Assembly (NCBI RefSeq): GCF_023746595.1
Contig: NZ_CP080572.1
Coordinates: forward strand, 744,001 to 808,000
From: Thermococcus argininiproducens
GTDB lineage: Archaea > Methanobacteriota_B > Thermococci > Thermococcales > Thermococcaceae
Length of the DNA stretch: 64,000 nt
Direction: 5' to 3'
The notes under the pieces were generated by a model. That model was not told where the DNA came from. It worked only from the letters and a program-made list of their open reading frames with translations, and ran no database searches. A program made the translations under genes and the position numbers. How positions within the stretch are numbered: position 1 is the first letter of the stretch; each line of letters starts with the position of its first letter. Below, piece after piece: positions 46,128 through 56,275 of this stretch.

Positions 46128-46256
46128 GCTCTCACCTGATTCTTGTAAATTTTGGGAAGTTAAAAGGTTATTTTAAACACTTATAGTGGTGATGCGTAGG
46201 CTATTGGTTTTTAATTTTAGGTGAAAAGATGAGAGGTTGGAAAATGGGCAAAAGGG

Positions 46257-46269
46257 ATTTATATTATAA
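46257..46269 (+). promoter_or_regulatory. TATA box for the Mrr-like/PepSY-like gene
   Basis: ATTTATATTATAA with G-rich GGCAAAAGGG just upstream lies about 45 bases before the ATG at 46314. Transcription would begin near 46290, leaving a short leader. Confidence 0.5.
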
Positions 46270-46313: not shown

Positions 46314-48464
46314 ATGAAGTGGAATTTAGAGATCTTACAAGAGGCCTCTCGGGAAACACTTATCAAAACTCTGGTAAACCTGCTCGAACTGATGGGATTT
46401 AGGAATGTAGAGATGGTGGATAGCCCAGAAGAGTGGGGGATAGATATTCTCGCTCTTAGGGACGATCCTATTGCGGGATTTGAAAAATATGTAATAAAAG
46501 TAAAATCAGGAGCTCTAACGTCTTCTCAAGATATTGAGCATTTTAATGAAGCCATAGGGAGAGCAAAGGCTGATAAGGGGATTTTTGTCTCAATAAATGG
46601 ATATACTAAAGATGCTAAACTCCTAGTTGGAAAGGAGTACAAAGGAAGGGTAATTATATGGGATGGTGAAAAGCTTGTTGAAGATTTAAACAACAAAGAA
46701 GTGCCAGTGAGTGAAGAACTACTCGAAAAAATCACGAGAAAAAAAGAACAGGAAAAATTGGAAGAGAAGCGAAAAGCTGTTTTAAAGGTAATACGACTAG
46801 ATACTCCACTTTTGTACTCTTTCTCTCCAGATAAAGTTTTTGAGCAAATATCCTCATTACTTGAGAAAAAGTATAAAATAAAGAAGGAAGATATTATTTT
46901 AAAAACCTTGATCTTAGAAGCCTCAACGGCTTATATCTTCTCTTGGTCAGCTCTGGTGGGAGATACAAAAGATAAGGCTGTAATATTCTCTAAGGAGGAA
47001 ATATTGCCCTTTGTGAGCAGGGATGAGGAATTAGATAAAAAAGTGTCCAAGGCCCTTTTAGAGAGTGGGTCTGCTATTAAAGCGACAGAGATAAGGGTCA
47101 TTGAGCCATTAACCCCAAATGAGGCGGTTTTATTAGTTAAGTCTAGACTTGCAGAGGATCTGAAAGTCTCTCAAAGTAGTATTATCTTACATTCTCGGAG
47201 GAAAGTGTATATTCCTAAAAGGGTATTACTGGAATTGCAAGTTGGAATAAATTCCGCAAAGGGAGAGGTTGATCTCAAAAGCAAAGAGGCCAGGGTTAAA
47301 ATAGAGCCTCTTTCAAGGGAGAAGTTAATTGAAATTGCTAAGGAGGAGTGCATGAATTTACTTGGGGAAGAACTTAGGGAGATTTCATTTGAACCAAAAG
47401 AGAATGTGGCTATAATAAATGGTCAAGTTAGCAGGTTCCTTTTTGGTGCAGCTGTTCATATATATAGTGGAAGGGTTTTAAAGAGAAAATCGAAGATAAA
47501 GAGAGATGCGATTCTCTCTGAAGTTTCAAAGAAATACCCAGGAGGAAAAGTTATTTCTTTTACTGAAAGAGAGGATAAAGCAATTATTGATGTACTAGCA
47601 CCTGAAGGTATTGTAGTTTTGGAGTTTAACTTGGAAACAGGGGATTATGTGGTCAAAGAAAAGCTTGTCCACCCATATAATCTTGCGAAAATAGCGAAAG
47701 ATCTTATTGAAGCTAATTTTGATATAAAAGACCTAGAACTCAGCGATTTTAAGGTTCGTGATCATAAGAACCTAGAACTACTCCTTAAAAGTGAGGATGG
47801 AAAAGTTTTGGTAAAGGTTGATGGAAAGACAGGGGATATAATGGATTACTTTGTGGAAATTACTCCTGAAAAAGCTGAAAAAATAATCTCGAAAAAGTAC
47901 CCTGACTGGCGAATAAAGAAAGTAGAGGACTTAAAAGATAGTTATAAGATAGAACTCGAAAATGACAAACTTCTGTTAAAACTCTCTCTTAGTAAAGATG
48001 GGAAACTACTAACAGAAGTCGATAAATACTTGAAAGAAGATGTTGTGAAGAAAATAGCGAAAGAATTCTTAGAGGAAAAAGGAATTACTGCAGATATTAA
48101 AGAGTTAGAGCTTGATGAAAACTGGAAGGTAAAATTTGCGGGTAAAGAACGTGTGGGGGAGATTCTCATAGAACGAGTTTCAGGGAGAGTCTTAAAGAGT
48201 GATATTTTCCTAACAGAATTTATAATTGAAGAAACTTATCAGTCTCATGTTTCAGAGAAGTTTGCTGAGAAAAATCCGAAAACAGAAACAATAATAGTTC
48301 ACAAGGAAAGAGGGTATGCGATTATAAAGCTTTCTGGGGATAATGGGTTTTATTATGCAAAAGTTGATCTTCGTACAGGTAAAATCTTAAAAGAAGATAT
48401 GATACCGAGGAAAGGGTTGAAGGCAAAAATAAAGAAACTCCAGCTGGATGCAAAGTACAAGTGA
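46314..48464 (+). CDS. large protein with Mrr-like nuclease domain and repeated PepSY-like modules
   Basis: The 716-residue protein begins with a restriction-endonuclease-like domain (about 1-120): a helix, then EEWGIDILALRDD (catalytic-type Asp) and YVIKVKSG at the position where Mrr proteins have a Gln-x-Lys or Glu-x-Lys. Here the first residue is Lys, so catalysis is doubtful. After a charged linker (about 125-160) come several repeats of about 90 residues, each with a helix and hairpin resembling PepSY modules, such as ISKKYPDWRIKKVEDLKDSYKIELE and VSKKYPGGKVISFTERED. No membrane segment is seen. GGTGTG lies shortly before the ATG. Function is unknown; the combination is unusual. Confidence 0.68.
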   Translation: MKWNLEILQEASRETLIKTLVNLLELMGFRNVEMVDSPEEWGIDILALRDDPIAGFEKYVIKVKSGALTSSQDIEHFNEAIGRAKADKGIFVSINGYTKDAKLLVGKEYKGRVIIWDGEKLVEDLNNKEVPVSEELLEKITRKKEQEKLEEKRKAVLKVIRLDTPLLYSFSPDKVFEQISSLLEKKYKIKKEDIILKTLILEASTAYIFSWSALVGDTKDKAVIFSKEEILPFVSRDEELDKKVSKALLESGSAIKATEIRVIEPLTPNEAVLLVKSRLAEDLKVSQSSIILHSRRKVYIPKRVLLELQVGINSAKGEVDLKSKEARVKIEPLSREKLIEIAKEECMNLLGEELREISFEPKENVAIINGQVSRFLFGAAVHIYSGRVLKRKSKIKRDAILSEVSKKYPGGKVISFTEREDKAIIDVLAPEGIVVLEFNLETGDYVVKEKLVHPYNLAKIAKDLIEANFDIKDLELSDFKVRDHKNLELLLKSEDGKVLVKVDGKTGDIMDYFVEITPEKAEKIISKKYPDWRIKKVEDLKDSYKIELENDKLLLKLSLSKDGKLLTEVDKYLKEDVVKKIAKEFLEEKGITADIKELELDENWKVKFAGKERVGEILIERVSGRVLKSDIFLTEFIIEETYQSHVSEKFAEKNPKTETIIVHKERGYAIIKLSGDNGFYYAKVDLRTGKILKEDMIPRKGLKAKIKKLQLDAKYK

Positions 48465-49076
48465 TTAGGTCATTAAGAGGCTTTCGATGAGCTTTATAGC
48501 TTCTACTATTTTTGTTTCTGGTACATCTTCCTCTGGTAACTCCAAGTTTATTACGAGCCTTTCTTCTTGTCCTTCTTCATCTAGTCCATAGACTTCGAGC
48601 TCTTCAATGTCTACATCTTCAAAGAAGTTTTCTATTTCAGGCCCAATGACCTTTTTGTCGTTTCCATAGACTTCCACTCTAATAACGTCATCCTTCGAGG
48701 ATGCCATAACTGCTATTTCATAACCCCCAACTTTTTTTGTGAATTTTATCATGTTCCCATATCCTAAGACCTCTTCATTAAATCCCAGTTTCTTCATAAC
48801 ACTTCTCATTCTTTCAATTTTTGCTTTCATCCTATTCAATAAACGGTCTCTCAACTTATAGCTCTCTTCTAGGGCTTTTTTCATTCCCTCACCAGCGTTT
48901 TCAATCTCGCCTTCCCATATCCCGATAAGCTTTATGCCAGAAGAGGTTGGCCTAAGCTCAATTTTTAAATTCTCTATGTCAAAATCCTTCAAATCCTCAA
49001 TCCTAAGCTCGCTGAGGTTTAGTATATCAAATTCAATTCTAACTAGATTTCCAAAAGCTTTCCCTTTAAATTTCAA
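48465..49076 (-). CDS. conserved hypothetical protein
   Basis: The 203-residue protein has a central helical stretch (GEGMKKALEESYKLRDRLLNRMKAKIERMRSVMKKLGF) between two beta-rich parts. No catalytic motif or membrane segment is visible, and acidic residues dominate the C-terminal third. The start is a TTG at 49076 with GGTGATGCCCT directly upstream. Its stop abuts that of the Mrr-like/PepSY-like gene with no spacer, so the two genes are convergent. It is probably a Thermococcales-specific family. Function unknown. Confidence 0.6.
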   Translation of the reverse strand: MKFKGKAFGNLVRIEFDILNLSELRIEDLKDFDIENLKIELRPTSSGIKLIGIWEGEIENAGEGMKKALEESYKLRDRLLNRMKAKIERMRSVMKKLGFNEEVLGYGNMIKFTKKVGGYEIAVMASSKDDVIRVEVYGNDKKVIGPEIENFFEDVDIEELEVYGLDEEGQEERLVINLELPEEDVPETKIVEAIKLIESLLMT

Positions 49077-49157: not shown

Positions 49158-51212
49158 TCATTTTTTCCTTTTAACAGCGAGTAATGGCAATAAGGCGAGA
49201 GCTACAATTGCTGCAGGGCCACACACCCCACCCGCTTCTGTCGTTGTGGGGGATGAGGAAGAAGTAGTTTCTGGTGGAGAACTGGTTGTTGGTGGGGTTG
49301 ATGAGGACGTGGTTGTTTCGGAAGGTGTAGTTTGAGTGGGAGTTGAAGTTGTACTTGTCTCTATTTCTCCTATGGTTTTTTCTGTGCTGGCTTTGTTCCC
49401 GTAGAAGTCTATTGCTACAGCCCTTATTATATATCCATCCGCATCAACTCCTGGAATCTCGGCCATAAAGTACTCTGCTTGTCCTCCGCTGCTTTGAACT
49501 GCTGGATACTTCGTAACAACTCCATTTGCCTCAATTTCTACATAAATATCCTTGATCCCTAAGTTGTCTTTTACGCTGATATAAACTTTAAATGGCTTTC
49601 CTTTCATAGGCTTGGATGGGGTAAGATATGAGATATCCACTTGGGGGTTTTCCGTGTCTTTTCCTTTACTTATAACGAGCTGGGATATTCCTTTGGGTAC
49701 AGTTATTTCAAAGAGCTCATATGTCTTGTCTCCTATTTTTCTCTCTCCTAGGATCTTGTACGTGACGTTTGTTACACTCGTGTCAACCTGGGCCCCGTCT
49801 GGGATTTCAATGGCAAATTTTCCACTTTCTTCTCCTAGGAGGTTTATGAATTTTACAGCACTTCCAAAGTCTGTTGTCCATCTGACTGTAATGAACTCCT
49901 GTGGAACCGGTAATGAGATAAAGTCATTGAAGAGACTTCCAAACATTTCCTCAATTTCAGGAAGTCTGACGTTTCCATTCTCATCTATCTCGACTATCTT
50001 TGACCCATACCATGTTGGACTCCTGCCTGGCCTAGGGGGATTAGTTTCTTTATCTGGGGCCCCCGTAGTTGTTGACGTTACAAACCAGTGCTCATTACCG
50101 TTTTTGTCCACGTAAATGTGGAGTTTGTCATGGTGAATATGGCCACTCATAATAAGTTTAATGTTGTATTTCTCAACATCTTGGAGGAAACGCCTTGCTA
50201 TGTCAAGATACTCTTGATTTCTTCCAAACCAATAATAGCTACCATATTGTATCATTTCTTGCCAATCCTCGTCATCGAATGCTGAAACACCCTCGATTCT
50301 ACCCCCGATCCATCCTTGCGGGGCAGAATACCAATATGGGTGGTGGACAATTACTATTGGGATTTTATCGGGATGGTCTTCAAGCACTTTTTCCATCCAT
50401 TCTAGCTGGTTCATATAGGGGTGGGCCTCATCTCCATGGGAGTCGAGGGCTATTATGATAAACTTTCCAATAACTATGTAGTAGTCCGTAGGTCCTATAA
50501 GTCTGGGATAATAATTAGGTGGATCATCATGATTTCCTTTAACAAGTATTGTTGGCCTTCCAGCGGCATTTGCATGGGAGATTATATCAAGCAGTAGCCT
50601 GTATCCTTTTCCGTCTCCTGCTGTGTCTACAACATCTCCAGTGGTTATCATAACATCAACTCTATCATCCATGGCCCAGTATGTATAAGCACTATCTGTT
50701 GCAACATAGCTGTGTAACGGGACTATTATACCTCCATCGCATAGTTCTTGGATTCTTTTTATATCTCTCTGGAAGTATTCTCCACAAACATAACCAAACT
50801 TAGTACCACTTGTAACGTGGGTGTCGCTCATATGGGCTATTCTAAGAACTTTGGGATACTCTTTGAGAATCCAAACTGCACCTGGAATTGTTACTTCTCC
50901 TTTGTTTGATTTAATTTGAAGGAAATACACATCTGGAACAACGTTCTCTGGAACTTTTACCTTTAGTGTAGCACCTTTCTCAATGATCTCTAGCTCATAT
51001 GGGCCATTCAACACAGAGACTATTGAGAGAGAGTTTATGTCTACTCCATCTTGTGGCTGTATCTCCACAACCTCTCCTGGAAGTGCCACGACAGGGGCTC
51101 CGGGCATTGGATACTTCAACACGTCTCCCGGGAGGGCTTCTGCACTTACTTGGTTTATATTAATTAAAGACAGAGTTAAAAGAACTAACAAAAAAGCAAC
51201 TATTCTTCTCAT
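49158..51212 (-). CDS. CGP-CTERM-anchored calcineurin-type metallophosphoesterase
   Basis: The 684-residue protein has a signal peptide (about 1-24) and ends with the CGP-CTERM module: a Thr/Ser/Pro-rich linker, GGVCGP, a membrane helix and KRKK, used in Thermococcales for surface anchoring. The phosphoesterase metal ligands are in order HMSDTH (130-132), TGDVVD (191-196), GNHD (226-229), HHPYW (about 290) and SGHIHHD (about 365). C-terminal beta-sandwich domains follow. It would hydrolyse phosphodiesters or phosphomonoesters outside the cell. GGTGGTGCT precedes the ATG at 51212. It lies downstream of an ABC importer and DUF447 gene on the same strand, with a 56-base gap. Confidence 0.9.
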   Translation of the reverse strand: MRRIVAFLLVLLTLSLININQVSAEALPGDVLKYPMPGAPVVALPGEVVEIQPQDGVDINSLSIVSVLNGPYELEIIEKGATLKVKVPENVVPDVYFLQIKSNKGEVTIPGAVWILKEYPKVLRIAHMSDTHVTSGTKFGYVCGEYFQRDIKRIQELCDGGIIVPLHSYVATDSAYTYWAMDDRVDVMITTGDVVDTAGDGKGYRLLLDIISHANAAGRPTILVKGNHDDPPNYYPRLIGPTDYYIVIGKFIIIALDSHGDEAHPYMNQLEWMEKVLEDHPDKIPIVIVHHPYWYSAPQGWIGGRIEGVSAFDDEDWQEMIQYGSYYWFGRNQEYLDIARRFLQDVEKYNIKLIMSGHIHHDKLHIYVDKNGNEHWFVTSTTTGAPDKETNPPRPGRSPTWYGSKIVEIDENGNVRLPEIEEMFGSLFNDFISLPVPQEFITVRWTTDFGSAVKFINLLGEESGKFAIEIPDGAQVDTSVTNVTYKILGERKIGDKTYELFEITVPKGISQLVISKGKDTENPQVDISYLTPSKPMKGKPFKVYISVKDNLGIKDIYVEIEANGVVTKYPAVQSSGGQAEYFMAEIPGVDADGYIIRAVAIDFYGNKASTEKTIGEIETSTTSTPTQTTPSETTTSSSTPPTTSSPPETTSSSSPTTTEAGGVCGPAAIVALALLPLLAVKRKK

Positions 51213-51899: not shown

Positions 51900-52961
51900 C
51901 TAGAGAGTCTTGGGAAGTACAAGGATGTCTTCTCTCTCTATGTAGAATGTGACGTCTCCTTGGGGTCTCAGGCCTACAACGTCCCTATCATTTATTGTCC
52001 TTGCTATTATTCTCCTTTCTCCAAATAGTCCAACAACCTCGATGAAAAAGCCATAGTACTCTATTAGATCCACTTTTCCAGTTATTGAGACAGCGTTTTC
52101 GATGGGATGTAAGCTGATACGTTCAGGTCTTATCACTACCACAACTTTGTCGTTCTCTCCGGTATAAGTTAGACCATCAAGCCTAAATCCTTCAAACTCT
52201 ACTGTTACTTTGTCCCCATCTCTTTCCACGACTTCCGCTGGGATTACGTTGGTCTTACCCATGAAAGAAGCAACAAATTCTGTTTTGGGTTGTTCATATA
52301 TCTCTTTTGGAGTTCCTACCTGTTCTATTTGACCTATATTCATTACTGCGATCCTATCACTTATTGCCATGGCCTCTTCTTGATCATGAGTAACATAAAC
52401 AACTGTGATTCCAAGTTCTCTTTGGATTCTCCTTATTTCGGATCTCATTTCAAGTCTAAGCTTTGCATCTAAGTTTGAGAGAGGCTCATCTAAGAGTAGA
52501 AGCTTGGGTTCAACTACGAGAGCTCTTGCTATTGCCACCCTTTGTTGCTGGCCTCCACTCAGCTGAGTTGGATATCTATCTTCGTAACCTTGGAGCTTAA
52601 CCAATTCAAGCGCCCATTTTACCTTTTTCTCGATTTCTTGTTTGGGAAGCTTCTTCACCTTAAGTCCATATGCTACGTTGTCGTATACTGTCATATGGGG
52701 CCATAAGGCATAGTTTTGGAAGACCAAAACTGCACCTCTTTCACTCGAACTTTTGTACGTGACATCCTCGTCATCAAAATGTAGGTGTCCACTGTCAGGA
52801 AAGTCCAAACCTGCTATTATTCTCAAAGTGGTTGATTTTCCACAACCACTTGGTCCGAGGAGAGTAAATAACTCCCCGTGTTTTATATGGAGATCAATAC
52901 CCTTTAGTGCAACGGTTTCACCAAATGTTTTTACTATGTTCTCAAGTTTAACCTCGACCAT
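51900..52961 (-). CDS. ABC importer ATP-binding protein (iron/putrescine/thiamine type)
   Basis: The 353-residue protein has Walker A GPSGCGKST, Q loop in VFQNYALWPHMTVYDNV, signature LSGGQQQR, Walker B LLLLDEPLSN and switch His in VTHDQEEA. The C-terminal part (about 240-353) is a TOBE-type regulatory domain, as in FbpC and PotA. AGGTGAGAAA precedes the ATG at 52961, 9 bases after the permease stop. It belongs to a three-gene importer with the fused permease and binding protein. Substrate is not fixed by sequence. Confidence 0.93.
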   Translation of the reverse strand: MVEVKLENIVKTFGETVALKGIDLHIKHGELFTLLGPSGCGKSTTLRIIAGLDFPDSGHLHFDDEDVTYKSSSERGAVLVFQNYALWPHMTVYDNVAYGLKVKKLPKQEIEKKVKWALELVKLQGYEDRYPTQLSGGQQQRVAIARALVVEPKLLLLDEPLSNLDAKLRLEMRSEIRRIQRELGITVVYVTHDQEEAMAISDRIAVMNIGQIEQVGTPKEIYEQPKTEFVASFMGKTNVIPAEVVERDGDKVTVEFEGFRLDGLTYTGENDKVVVVIRPERISLHPIENAVSITGKVDLIEYYGFFIEVVGLFGERRIIARTINDRDVVGLRPQGDVTFYIEREDILVLPKTL

Positions 52962-52970
52962 TTTCTCACC

Positions 52971-54815
52971 TCATGTTAATCCGATGAATGAGTATCTTTG
53001 CTTTGTAATAATATTCACAACAACAATTGCCGTGATTTGGACAACTATTAATAACACACCTAATGCCGCTGCTATGTTGATACTACCTGCAGCTGACATT
53101 AAGACTTCTTTCATGAATGCTGTTATTGGGGCTTGATCTATGTTGATTGAACCTAGGGTTATTCCCACGCTTGTTTCACTCATAGAGTAAACAAAGCTAA
53201 GCATTGCTCCACCAAAGACGTTTAATGAAATTAATGGCATCAATATTCCCGTAACAGTCTTCCATCTTGAAGCCCCTAGGTTTATTGAAGACTCTTCGAG
53301 GGACATATGTACTTGTTGTAACCCAGCATAAACTGATCTGGCGGCAAAAGGAAGTCTTCGTATAGAGTAAGCTAGTATCAGGACAAGGGCAGGATTAAAT
53401 CCATAGAGGGATGTTGGATTTAGGGGTGAGTTCTCTGGTGTTACTGCTGAGAAGAAGTAAAAGTATCCCATTGCCACGACTATTCCTGGAACTGCAATTG
53501 GGAGTATCACTATGCTCTCTAATATCGGACTCAAGATCCCTTTGAACCTGCTTGTTGCGTAGGAAGAGGTTATTGATAGGAGGATTATAAGGACAACAGC
53601 TGCTCCAGAATAGCTTAGGCTGTTTACAATAAATCTTCTCACATCTGGGTTCAGAAGCATCTCCTTTATGTAATCGATAGTAAATCCTTGGGGAAGTACT
53701 GTTGTGGTCCATCTCTCAGAGAAAGCGAGCATTATAACACCTATTTGGGGGAAGATTGTAAGCAGTAATGCTGGAAGGAGAACTAGATAGATTAAGAGAG
53801 CTTGCCATGGTTTTGGTTTACTTATCCTTGGTTTCCATCTTCCACCCTTGCTTAGCATTGCATATTGTCTTAAACTTACGTATTTTCTAATTCCGAGGAA
53901 GGCTATCACTGCTAGAATGAGCATTATTATTGATAGGGCTGCTATTTCTGGGCTTCTCTCTCCTAAGCCATATATGAATTTACTGAATATCTGGTATGAC
54001 ATTAACTTTTTAGCCAGTGGATCACCGTGGAATACGATGGGAGCTGCTAAGTCCTCAAGACTGAAGATGAATACCAAGGTAGCACCTGCAGCAATTCCAG
54101 GAAGAGCCAAGGGAAAGGTGACAGTTCTGAAAAGTCGAAATCCTTTGCTTCCAAGGTTCTCAGCTTGTTCTTCTAGAGTAGGATCAATATTAATAAAGCT
54201 TGCATATGCATTTAAATAAACTATTGGATAATATGCCATCGATTGGGCTAAAACAACTCCTGCTAACCCATCTATTTTGATTCTAAATGGTAGCACATGA
54301 AGGATTTCATGGAAGATGTAATTTATCAACCCAAATTCACTAAACATTTGTTTTATAACATAAGCGTTTACAAAGGGAGTTACTAGGAGCGGGATAAAGA
54401 GAGCGATTCTAAAGAGATTTTTCCCTTTAAAATTGTATCTTGCCATTACAAAGGCAAAAACTGTCCCTAAAATCGCAGTAAAGAGAGTCACTAAACCGGC
54501 AACAACGAGGGAGTTAAGAACAACACCAAAATCTACACCCCTGATTAAATACAAACTCTCACCAGTTGAAGTTGTTAATTTTTGGGCAAAATCTCCATGT
54601 GGAGGGACCTGGAGATAATAAGAATCCATTAATATGCTCTTAAACCAATGAAGTGAGATATTCCCATCATAAGTGAATGCAATTAGCAGCATAGAAAGTA
54701 CAGGGACTATTAAAAAGATCATCAGATAAAGCAATGGAAAAATATAGGAAAAGGCAACAAGGGGCTCAAACAGTGGAGTCCCAAAAAATCTTTCAGTCCA
54801 TTTATTCACTTTCAT
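52971..54815 (-). CDS. ABC importer permease, fused double form (FbpB-like)
   Basis: The 614-residue protein carries two binding-protein-dependent permease domains in tandem, each with about six membrane helices. Coupling motifs are visible in each half: EEQAENLGSKGFRLFRTVTFPLALPGIAAG and LEESSINLGASRWKTVTGILMPLI. A fused permease of this type is found in iron, thiamine and 2-aminoethylphosphonate importers. GGAGGTGCAAGG precedes the ATG at 54815; the upstream in-frame ATG at 54869 lies inside the receptor gene. It overlaps the receptor stop by 4 bases. Confidence 0.92.
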   Translation of the reverse strand: MKVNKWTERFFGTPLFEPLVAFSYIFPLLYLMIFLIVPVLSMLLIAFTYDGNISLHWFKSILMDSYYLQVPPHGDFAQKLTTSTGESLYLIRGVDFGVVLNSLVVAGLVTLFTAILGTVFAFVMARYNFKGKNLFRIALFIPLLVTPFVNAYVIKQMFSEFGLINYIFHEILHVLPFRIKIDGLAGVVLAQSMAYYPIVYLNAYASFINIDPTLEEQAENLGSKGFRLFRTVTFPLALPGIAAGATLVFIFSLEDLAAPIVFHGDPLAKKLMSYQIFSKFIYGLGERSPEIAALSIIMLILAVIAFLGIRKYVSLRQYAMLSKGGRWKPRISKPKPWQALLIYLVLLPALLLTIFPQIGVIMLAFSERWTTTVLPQGFTIDYIKEMLLNPDVRRFIVNSLSYSGAAVVLIILLSITSSYATSRFKGILSPILESIVILPIAVPGIVVAMGYFYFFSAVTPENSPLNPTSLYGFNPALVLILAYSIRRLPFAARSVYAGLQQVHMSLEESSINLGASRWKTVTGILMPLISLNVFGGAMLSFVYSMSETSVGITLGSINIDQAPITAFMKEVLMSAAGSINIAAALGVLLIVVQITAIVVVNIITKQRYSFIGLT

Positions 54816-56275
54816 CCTTGCACCTCCGAAAGAACGCTTTGGTATTTTTGTCTTGCGGCCTCTCTCCACTCTTGCATTAGAGTGTCCCTAAAGGATGAGT
54901 CTTTTGCAAGTCTGTCATTTATCTTTTCTGCATATTCCTCAGTTAGGGTAACCATTTGTCCTGTATCTGGATCTTTGAACTCTATAGGTTCTAAAAGTCT
55001 TGCCTTGAGTTCATTGTATTTCTCTTCGCTTATTTTTCCTTCTTTGTATGCTTTTACAAGAGCCACCCAGGCCCTGTGAAGCTCTTGGTTTGCATCTACG
55101 AGGGTTGCTTTGAAGTAAAGCTGCATTGAAGTTACAGTGGCTAAAGCTGCGTTATCATCAAATTCGATACCTTGGGTCTTAAGTGCACTTTCATATGCTC
55201 TTTTCAGGTCAGGTCTCTTTTGCCCCTCAGGTGTGCTAAATACATCTGGGTTAACTGGAAGCCTGTTTATTTTTTCATCAAGCCATATCTTTTGTCCTTC
55301 AGTAAGAACCCAATAAATAAATGCTTGAGCAGCTTCTTTGTTTTGGGAGTTTGCGAGAAGGGCTATTGGGTCTCCATTTATTATGCTTTGTCCTTTTGGA
55401 ATAATATATTCACAAGATGGATTAAGCTTCATTGCAGTGTATCCATAGAAATCAATGGTGTTTCCAACAGCTATGTCTCCCGCTATTACAGCTTCTCTAA
55501 CAGCATCACTTGCGTCGTAAATCTTTGAATTTGCAGCAATGAGTCTAAGAATCTTCCATCCTTCGTCCCAACCAAATGCTTGGAGAATTATTTGATAAAT
55601 TCTTGTGTTTGAAGTGCTCCTTGTTGGATCTGCTATTCCCATTTGGGGTGGATCCATTGCAAAAGTCTCACTTGCAATTTCCTCCCACTTTTGAGGAACT
55701 GGGAGGTTCCATCTCTTGAGGACATCATGGTTTACAGTGAATCCAAAGGATGACAATGCAGCGGCTATCCAGTAGATCTTTCCATCGTCTCCTTTTCTGA
55801 TCATTGGCATTCCAGCGAGTGTTTCTTGGATCTGATTTCCAACAAGCCCTAAAATCTTTTGGTCCTCGATGGGGGCTAAATAATTATTTTTGAAGAGATC
55901 ATCAAAGAGTGTTGGGCCTCCACCCCATCCGACGTCGGCTCCTTTTTCTATATATGTGGGCCATAAGGACTCTGGAGCTTTTATGAACTTTACATCTTTA
56001 ATGTTATATTGCTTAGCTATGTCGCTTTGGAGAAACATTTTCTTTGCCATCACTTGAATAGTAACATCATGTCTCGTAAGGACAACTAGAGTTATTGGAC
56101 CAGTAGGTGTTGGAGAAGAAGTTGGAGAGGTGGTTTGAGTAGGAGATTCTGTGGGGGATTCTGTCTCAGTAGGTTGGGTCGTGGTTGAGGGTGTAGTCTC
56201 ACCACCAATACATCCAGCAGCTATTACGCTTGCGATTAAAATAAAAAGCATCACAAAACCAATCCTCTTTTTCAC
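54812..56275 (-). CDS. ABC importer substrate-binding lipoprotein (SBP_bac_6/FbpA-like)
   Basis: The 487-residue receptor starts with a signal peptide and lipobox VIAAGC (Cys22), then a Thr/Ser/Pro-rich linker. The binding fold is indicated by LVVLTRHDVTIQVMAKK, GADVGWGGGPTLFDDL, ALSSFGFTVNHDVLKRW and AIAVGNTIDFYGY-like segments near residue 290. The family captures ferric iron, thiamine or phosphonates. The GTG at 56275 follows GGTGAGGCAAC. It is the first gene of the importer transcript (receptor, permease, ATPase, DUF447, perhaps the phosphoesterase). An iron role is not certain because no tyrosine-rich site can be confirmed by eye. Confidence 0.9.
   Translation of the reverse strand: MKKRIGFVMLFILIASVIAAGCIGGETTPSTTTQPTETESPTESPTQTTSPTSSPTPTGPITLVVLTRHDVTIQVMAKKMFLQSDIAKQYNIKDVKFIKAPESLWPTYIEKGADVGWGGGPTLFDDLFKNNYLAPIEDQKILGLVGNQIQETLAGMPMIRKGDDGKIYWIAAALSSFGFTVNHDVLKRWNLPVPQKWEEIASETFAMDPPQMGIADPTRSTSNTRIYQIILQAFGWDEGWKILRLIAANSKIYDASDAVREAVIAGDIAVGNTIDFYGYTAMKLNPSCEYIIPKGQSIINGDPIALLANSQNKEAAQAFIYWVLTEGQKIWLDEKINRLPVNPDVFSTPEGQKRPDLKRAYESALKTQGIEFDDNAALATVTSMQLYFKATLVDANQELHRAWVALVKAYKEGKISEEKYNELKARLLEPIEFKDPDTGQMVTLTEEYAEKINDRLAKDSSFRDTLMQEWREAARQKYQSVLSEVQG

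Follow-up and report, generated by a model that had tools for sequence, protein, structure and literature searches.

Gene and domain architecture

The window, that is, the whole stretch of 64,000 nucleotides analysed here, comes from a 1.95-Mb genome assembled as a single contig. It contains a forward-strand gene for a 716-residue protein, placed exactly by the original prediction. Residues were compared in a site table of 74 sequences, comprising 58 main-clade orthologs and 16 proteins of a second clade. The features are as follows, all on the forward strand.

46250..46269, +: archaeal TATA-type box AAAAGGGATTTATATTATAA, likely the gene's own promoter, about 50 nt before the ATG (by eye, unscored)
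46314..48464, +: gene for the Mrr-like head, predicted to be dead, and the PepSY array (716 aa; stop codon 48462-48464)
46314..46703, +: residues 1-130, Mrr_cat PD-(D/E)xK-type domain (PF04471; helix-strand order of the model)
46443..46445, +: Asp44, the retained 'PD' aspartate (D in 55 and E in 3 of 58 orthologs)
46458..46487, +: residues 49-58, hairpin R-x-D-P-x-x-G-x-E-K (site table; strand positions from the model)
46497..46505, +: residues 62-64, KVK, at the place of the catalytic Q/E-x-K (site table of 58 orthologs)
46704..46784, +: residues 131-157, linker helix, the least conserved part (model)
46785..47105, +: module 1, residues 158-264, elongated and PepSY-like with an inserted helix (model only; no Pfam match)
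47106..47312, +: module 2, residues 265-333, elongated and PepSY-like (model only)
47313..47501, +: module 3, residues 334-396, helix and four strands (models, fold search)
47502..47672, +: module 4, residues 397-453, helix and four strands (models)
47673..47864, +: module 5, residues 454-517, helix and four strands (models, fold search)
47865..48035, +: module 6, residues 518-574, PepSY_like (PF11396, E 6e-6, 26.9 bits, cut-off 28.3)
48036..48215, +: module 7, residues 575-634, PepSY (PF03413, E 0.033, below cut-off; profile match to module 6)
48216..48410, +: module 8, residues 635-699, PepSY (PF03413, E 3e-4 when scanned alone, below cut-off)
48411..48461, +: residues 700-716, basic C-terminal helix (model; Tyr715 invariant in 74/74 sequences)

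The reading frame is conserved in the 58 orthologs of full or almost full length, a set that includes one copy truncated by a contig end (G112), while the reverse strand of 46314-48464, of which one frame was translated, is packed with stops. Whole-gene dN/dS in nine ortholog pairs lies between 0.06 and 0.21, which marks this as a working gene. The gene is real and evolves under purifying selection. A TTTATA box was recognized by eye, without scoring, in 17 of the 19 upstream stretches printed; L020 and L021 were without a clear one.

The protein had been described as soluble, and hydropathy agrees: its highest 19-residue Kyte-Doolittle mean is 1.29, no membrane segment was found by hydropathy, and no hydrophobic N-terminus was seen by eye. 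It thereby differs from the usual setting of PepSY domains, which are secreted or membrane-attached.

The Mrr-type head and its catalytic site

Pfam assigns the N-terminus to Mrr_cat (PF04471), with an E-value of 1.2e-14 when the whole protein is scanned and of 4.5e-16 for the head alone (59.4 bits against a cut-off of 21; profile positions 2-113 of 115). The same cut-off was passed by all 24 copies of the gene in a search of 61 genomes. The fold of the head was judged from its sequence and the whole-chain model rather than from a separate model. In the whole-chain model, helix 13-26 is followed by strands 30-34, 45-51 and 55-64, and then by helix 71-83, strand 88-93, helix 99-108 and strand 113-117, an order that equals that of the Mrr_cat fold. 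The proposed restriction-endonuclease-like N-terminus is thus upheld, and no fold other than PD-(D/E)xK emerged. A profile search of the PDB with the head returned nothing useful, its best rows (E 0.05) being unrelated proteins.

Other profile collections relate the head to restriction and conflict proteins. Against PADLOC it matches PDC-S02 (E 9e-11) and mREase_IV (E 3e-5) with residues 12-143 only, which align to about the final 40% of the profiles; a full-length match to PDC-S02 was not obtained, and the gene, sitting beside pgk, is outside the defence context of that system. NA-iREase1 (PF22722), the inactive version of this fold in NACHT proteins, is matched with E-values up to 0.1 by 22 of the 23 family members. 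Its cut-off of 27 bits is passed by two of the four members scanned singly, the orthologs L018 (29.8 bits) and L024 (34.9 bits), whereas the window protein scores 20.3 bits, below that cut-off, and the second-clade protein L026 gives no match. Unlike NA-iREase1 proteins, the window protein has no NACHT or NTPase domain by Pfam.

With Mrr-type (type IV) restriction endonucleases the head shares a near-whole-domain profile match, the order of helices and strands and, in 55 of 58 orthologs, the PD aspartate. Unlike them, the 716-residue family is fused to PepSY modules and lacks the Q/E-x-K motif. The original prediction noted a retained Asp and a Q/E changed to Lys, and the window protein indeed has Asp44 and, in place of the Q/E, Lys62, with Lys64 kept; the loss runs deeper, however, and is family-wide. 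Position 62 is K in 26 orthologs, A in 24, L in 5, R in 2 and S in 1, and in none of the 58 is it Q or E; 43 of them have H at position 64, and the other 15 have K. Within the hairpin, R49, D51, P52, G55, E57 and K58 are invariant in all 58 orthologs. By the strand numbering of the model, the strand pair carries the hairpin tip at the end remote from D44 and residues 62-64.

As a control we used 18 other Mrr_cat matches from the search of 61 relatives' genomes. The (Q/E)xK motif is kept in 16 of them: the five best matches (L093-L097) all read D...QxK, and 11 of the remaining 13 keep the motif as judged by eye. The exceptions are L157 (A-C-K) and L168 (Q-V-C), so that loss of (Q/E)xK is uncommon among relatives, yet not unique to the 716-residue family; this fuller control set slightly weakens the statement that the motif was lost in this family only. 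Judged by its residues, the nuclease site of the family as a whole is dead. Head dN/dS is nevertheless 0.04-0.15 in the nine ortholog pairs, and 0.04 in two pairs in which A-x-H replaces QxK. These low values, the A-x-H pairs included, point to a head retained for something other than ordinary cutting, and selection has probably preserved it in such a role.

The PepSY-like modules

About eight PepSY-like modules make up the rest of the chain, six of 57-65 residues (334-699) and two elongated. The repeats had been predicted as PepSY-like, about five in number and 90 residues long; their PepSY character stands, but their count and size do not. PepSY (PF03413) matches the whole protein at E 5e-7 (30.4 bits, above the cut-off of 24), with module 8 as the best stretch, and with E-values up to 0.1 it is matched by 16 of the 23 family members. 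Modules 1-5, scanned singly with Pfam, gave no PepSY or PepSY_like match. When modules were compared with one another by profile, 4 of the 28 pairs exceeded 30% (the best at 73.5% and 69.8%) and 24 fell below; 12 were at or under 2.1%, the best score of the head, our control, against any module. Module 4 matches module 6 over 32 columns, and module 2 is weakly similar to modules 4, 5 and 8 (8-21%). Searching the PDB with a profile of modules 6-8 gave weak rows only, the best of them a platelet aggregation factor (E 0.0069) and another the periplasmic protein 3db7 (0.18), and PHROGs returned one unnamed family (0.0022 over 41 residues).

The whole-chain model (15 sequences) has a mean pLDDT of 90.0 and a pTM of 0.54, a value that leaves the relative placement of the modules unsure, whereas a separate model of modules 3-5 reached 95.7 and 0.82, respectively. 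With the latter, Foldseek ranked the C-terminal domain of YpeB (5boi) first at E 9.6e-5, followed by 3nol (glutaminyl cyclase), 4exr, presumably a PepSY protein, and 3u1w (5.3e-4); a DNA clamp and a propeller rank close behind the PepSY-type structures, and the first matches have TM-scores of at most 0.36. A second fold comparison gave Z-scores of 8.8 for 4exr (62 residues, 1.4 Å), 8.2 for 5boi (121 residues, 12.4 Å), 7.4 for chain A of a vibriolysin complex (3nqy), 7.3 for Nup133 propellers, 7.0 for 4k61 (DUF2874, which we take to be PF11396) and 6.9 for the BLIP-like 4fr9, values of 7-9 being only slightly over the stated background of the tool. Modules 3-5 therefore appear to resemble PepSY-type structures with modest scores, and folding of the repeats into something other than PepSY was not seen in their model. 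The PepSY assignment rests on sequence in modules 6-8, on fold in modules 3-5 and on weak profile similarity between modules. We also considered a beta-propeller, since searches with the whole model were full of propeller and peptidase matches, and rejected it, as these had TM-scores of about 0.1 and Z-scores of at most 7.4; we read the propeller matches of the whole model as a chance sharing of four-strand meanders.

The unit of one helix and four strands is shared with PepSY, YpeB, thermolysin-type propeptides and BLIP-like proteins (PF03413, PF11396), but these do not have about eight units per chain or a nuclease-fold head. Among archaeal PepSY proteins, the double-PepSY family cls.004634 is specific to DPANN and predicted to inhibit unidentified proteases, and the available part of that article mentions no nuclease-fold head for it (PMC6393860). 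No PepSY and Mrr fusion in Thermococcus, and nothing on an inactive restriction endonuclease with NACHT, was found in the open-licence literature. Each domain is thus known, while the combination of an Mrr head with a PepSY array was not found in print within that literature.

Distribution, second clade and proposed function

The family is matched in 64 of 94 Thermococcaceae genomes. Of these, 58 carry the main-clade gene, one (G095) has a second-clade gene only, and in five the main copy is broken or interrupted (G006, G069, G077, G088 and G102); G006 and G102 are fragmented assemblies, where sequencing error is possible. Stops or frame changes disrupt the main-clade copies L073, L074 and L143 of three genomes, and the assemblies of G069 and G077 consist of a single contig each. 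The broken copies, together with absence from 30 of the 94 genomes, suggest that the gene is dispensable. A first search found no match in 24 archaeal genomes outside Thermococcaceae, and in a search of 115 genomes of the phylum the 64 with a match were all Thermococcaceae. Origin as a mobile-element or phage gene was rejected, as no match turned up in plasmids and phages (tblastn) or in viral contigs, the latter searched with two short peptide patterns only.

We examined the surroundings of main-clade copies in 27 stretches, counting the window itself. The gene lies between pgk (Pfam E 3.2e-113) on one side and a gene for a 203-residue protein on the other in 21 of them; four have pgk without the 203-residue gene (L067, L073, L087 and L088), and two have neither (L066 and L068). 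The family is thus fixed on the chromosome beside pgk in 25 of 27 stretches, a further difference from Mrr-type restriction endonucleases, and a distant genus (L062, L063) retains the full gene order. In 9 of 12 genomes sampled from the 30 lacking the gene, pgk and the 203-residue gene are separated by about 70-340 bp that contain no match to the gene; in the other three, pgk was not found within the 6-6.5 kb fetched. This is most simply read as an old gene of the family that was lost cleanly many times.

A quick tree with a midpoint root separates the main clade from a second clade of 16 proteins, exemplified by L026:1492-3543 on the reverse strand. Here the Asp at position 44 is lost in all 16 (I, V, T, M or L instead), whereas R49 and E57 are each kept in 15. 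The head of L026, the one member scanned, is not recognized by Pfam. Of the 11 second-clade stretches, 10 contain purA (Pfam E 3.9e-92 for L026) and all contain a Hydrolase_4 gene ('Serine aminopeptidase, S33', E 1e-67 for L026), which is the next conserved gene and co-directional in seven. This S33-type hydrolase is a candidate client and is offered only as such; its identification slightly helps the client reading developed below.

We consider the odds about even that the 716-residue protein is a non-enzymatic cytosolic binding protein, with a retired Mrr head for docking and a PepSY arm holding a protein client. The head, retired from cutting, would now be a docking part, acting most likely through the invariant hairpin at residues 49-58. 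The array would be the working arm that grips the putative client, for which a hydrolase or peptidase is the likeliest kind, and keeps it inactive or stable, much as PepSY propeptides and the YpeB-SleB pair may illustrate. PepSY propeptides hold thermolysin-type proteases inactive or stable. YpeB is needed for the stability of SleB, and its N-terminal part inhibits SleB; no contact between SleB and the PepSY part at the C-terminus of YpeB was found in the available part of the source (PMC6660665).

Several observations count against this binding role. No peptidase gene neighbours the main-clade gene in the window, the hydrolase gene of the second clade is not adjacent and co-directional in 4 of 11 stretches, and the clients known for PepSY are mostly outside the cytoplasm, which speaks against a cytosolic one. 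The PepSY nature of the arm is itself weakened by low TM-scores, by Z-scores near background with Nup133 propellers scoring about as high for parts of the array, by modules 1-2 being seen in the model only and by the 12 of 28 module pairs at the level of the head control. A fuller history, in which an Mrr nuclease was captured and disarmed to become the docking head of a cytosolic PepSY array, a hydrolase or peptidase governor special to Thermococcaceae that was later copied into an Asp-less second form beside an S33-type hydrolase gene, is tentative, and we regard it as doubtful.

Two of the functions originally proposed, a DNA-binding sensor and a defence protein, come together in the idea that the dead head still binds DNA or RNA, perhaps modified or foreign, with the PepSY arm relaying or executing the response. 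Such a protein would explain the company its head keeps, namely restriction enzymes and a PADLOC defence candidate (PDC-S02, mREase_IV) as well as NA-iREase1, named for inactive domains of NACHT conflict proteins, and it would suit the patchy presence with clean absence in relatives and the net charge of +4 of the window protein. We nonetheless think it unlikely, given the position beside pgk, the lack of plasmid, phage and viral matches within the searches described, the absence of an effector domain by Pfam and the constrained evolution of the nine pairs tested. Charge is of little help to it either, or to the structural DNA factor that had also been suggested: most family proteins are not basic, with a mean of -10 over 58 orthologs (range -29 to +10), and neither is the head (residues 9-123), at +1.3 on average and -4 in the window protein. 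DNA binding and a defence role are thus unsupported, and a chromatin-like protein was rejected because the family is mostly not basic. An archaeal survey, as far as its available part goes, reports no persistent restriction system across Thermococcales and only an orphan methyltransferase in Pyrococcus (PMC10609329), which fits the family not being a restriction system.

A scaffold or assembly protein, whose array and head polymerise or join copies or partners with PepSY units as mere building blocks, seems less likely still. About eight tandem units in the model and the conserved C-terminal helix with its invariant Tyr715 would suit this role, as would the suggestion, in the available part of PMC6660665, that YpeB forms dimers or multimers, possibly via its C-terminal PepSY part. 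No sign of filament or lattice partners was seen, though, and the apparent dispensability of the gene, from its 30 absences and five broken or interrupted copies, argues the other way. Least probable, and in our view very improbable, is a still-active nuclease with a rearranged site built from D44, K/H64 and another acid. In its favour, all 58 orthologs have D or E at position 44 and K or H at position 64, but they have only K, A, L, R or S at position 62, the strand numbering places the invariant acids D51 and E57 at the opposite hairpin end, and D44 is gone in the second clade, whose function could differ. The family-wide site table and the Mrr_cat controls are what place this possibility so low.

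If the binding role holds, a defence nuclease fold has been retired into a binding part, and PepSY modules, so far mainly extracellular, form a long cytoplasmic array in hyperthermophiles. The label 'restriction enzyme' is probably wrong for the 716-residue protein, although automatic annotation would tend to name family copies restriction endonucleases despite the missing cutting residues. Thermococcus species have workable genetics.

Three neighbouring features downstream lie on the reverse strand. The 203-residue protein (48465-49076) has no Pfam family (best E 0.21), and its gene is present in 91 of 94 Thermococcaceae genomes; in those without the 716-residue gene it is upstream of and co-directional with pgk. 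We rejected a functional pair of the two, since the 203-residue gene is present with or without its neighbour. At 49158-51212 lies a gene for a 684-residue calcineurin-like phosphoesterase (PF00149, E 3.1e-11), which by eye starts like a signal sequence, continues as a stalk rich in Thr/Ser and ends in a hydrophobic tail at the C-terminus, and which is probably located at the cell surface. Further on, 51900-54869 encodes parts of an ABC importer, an ATP-binding protein with TOBE_2 (PF00005, E 3.1e-37) and a double permease (PF00528, E 1.4e-23).
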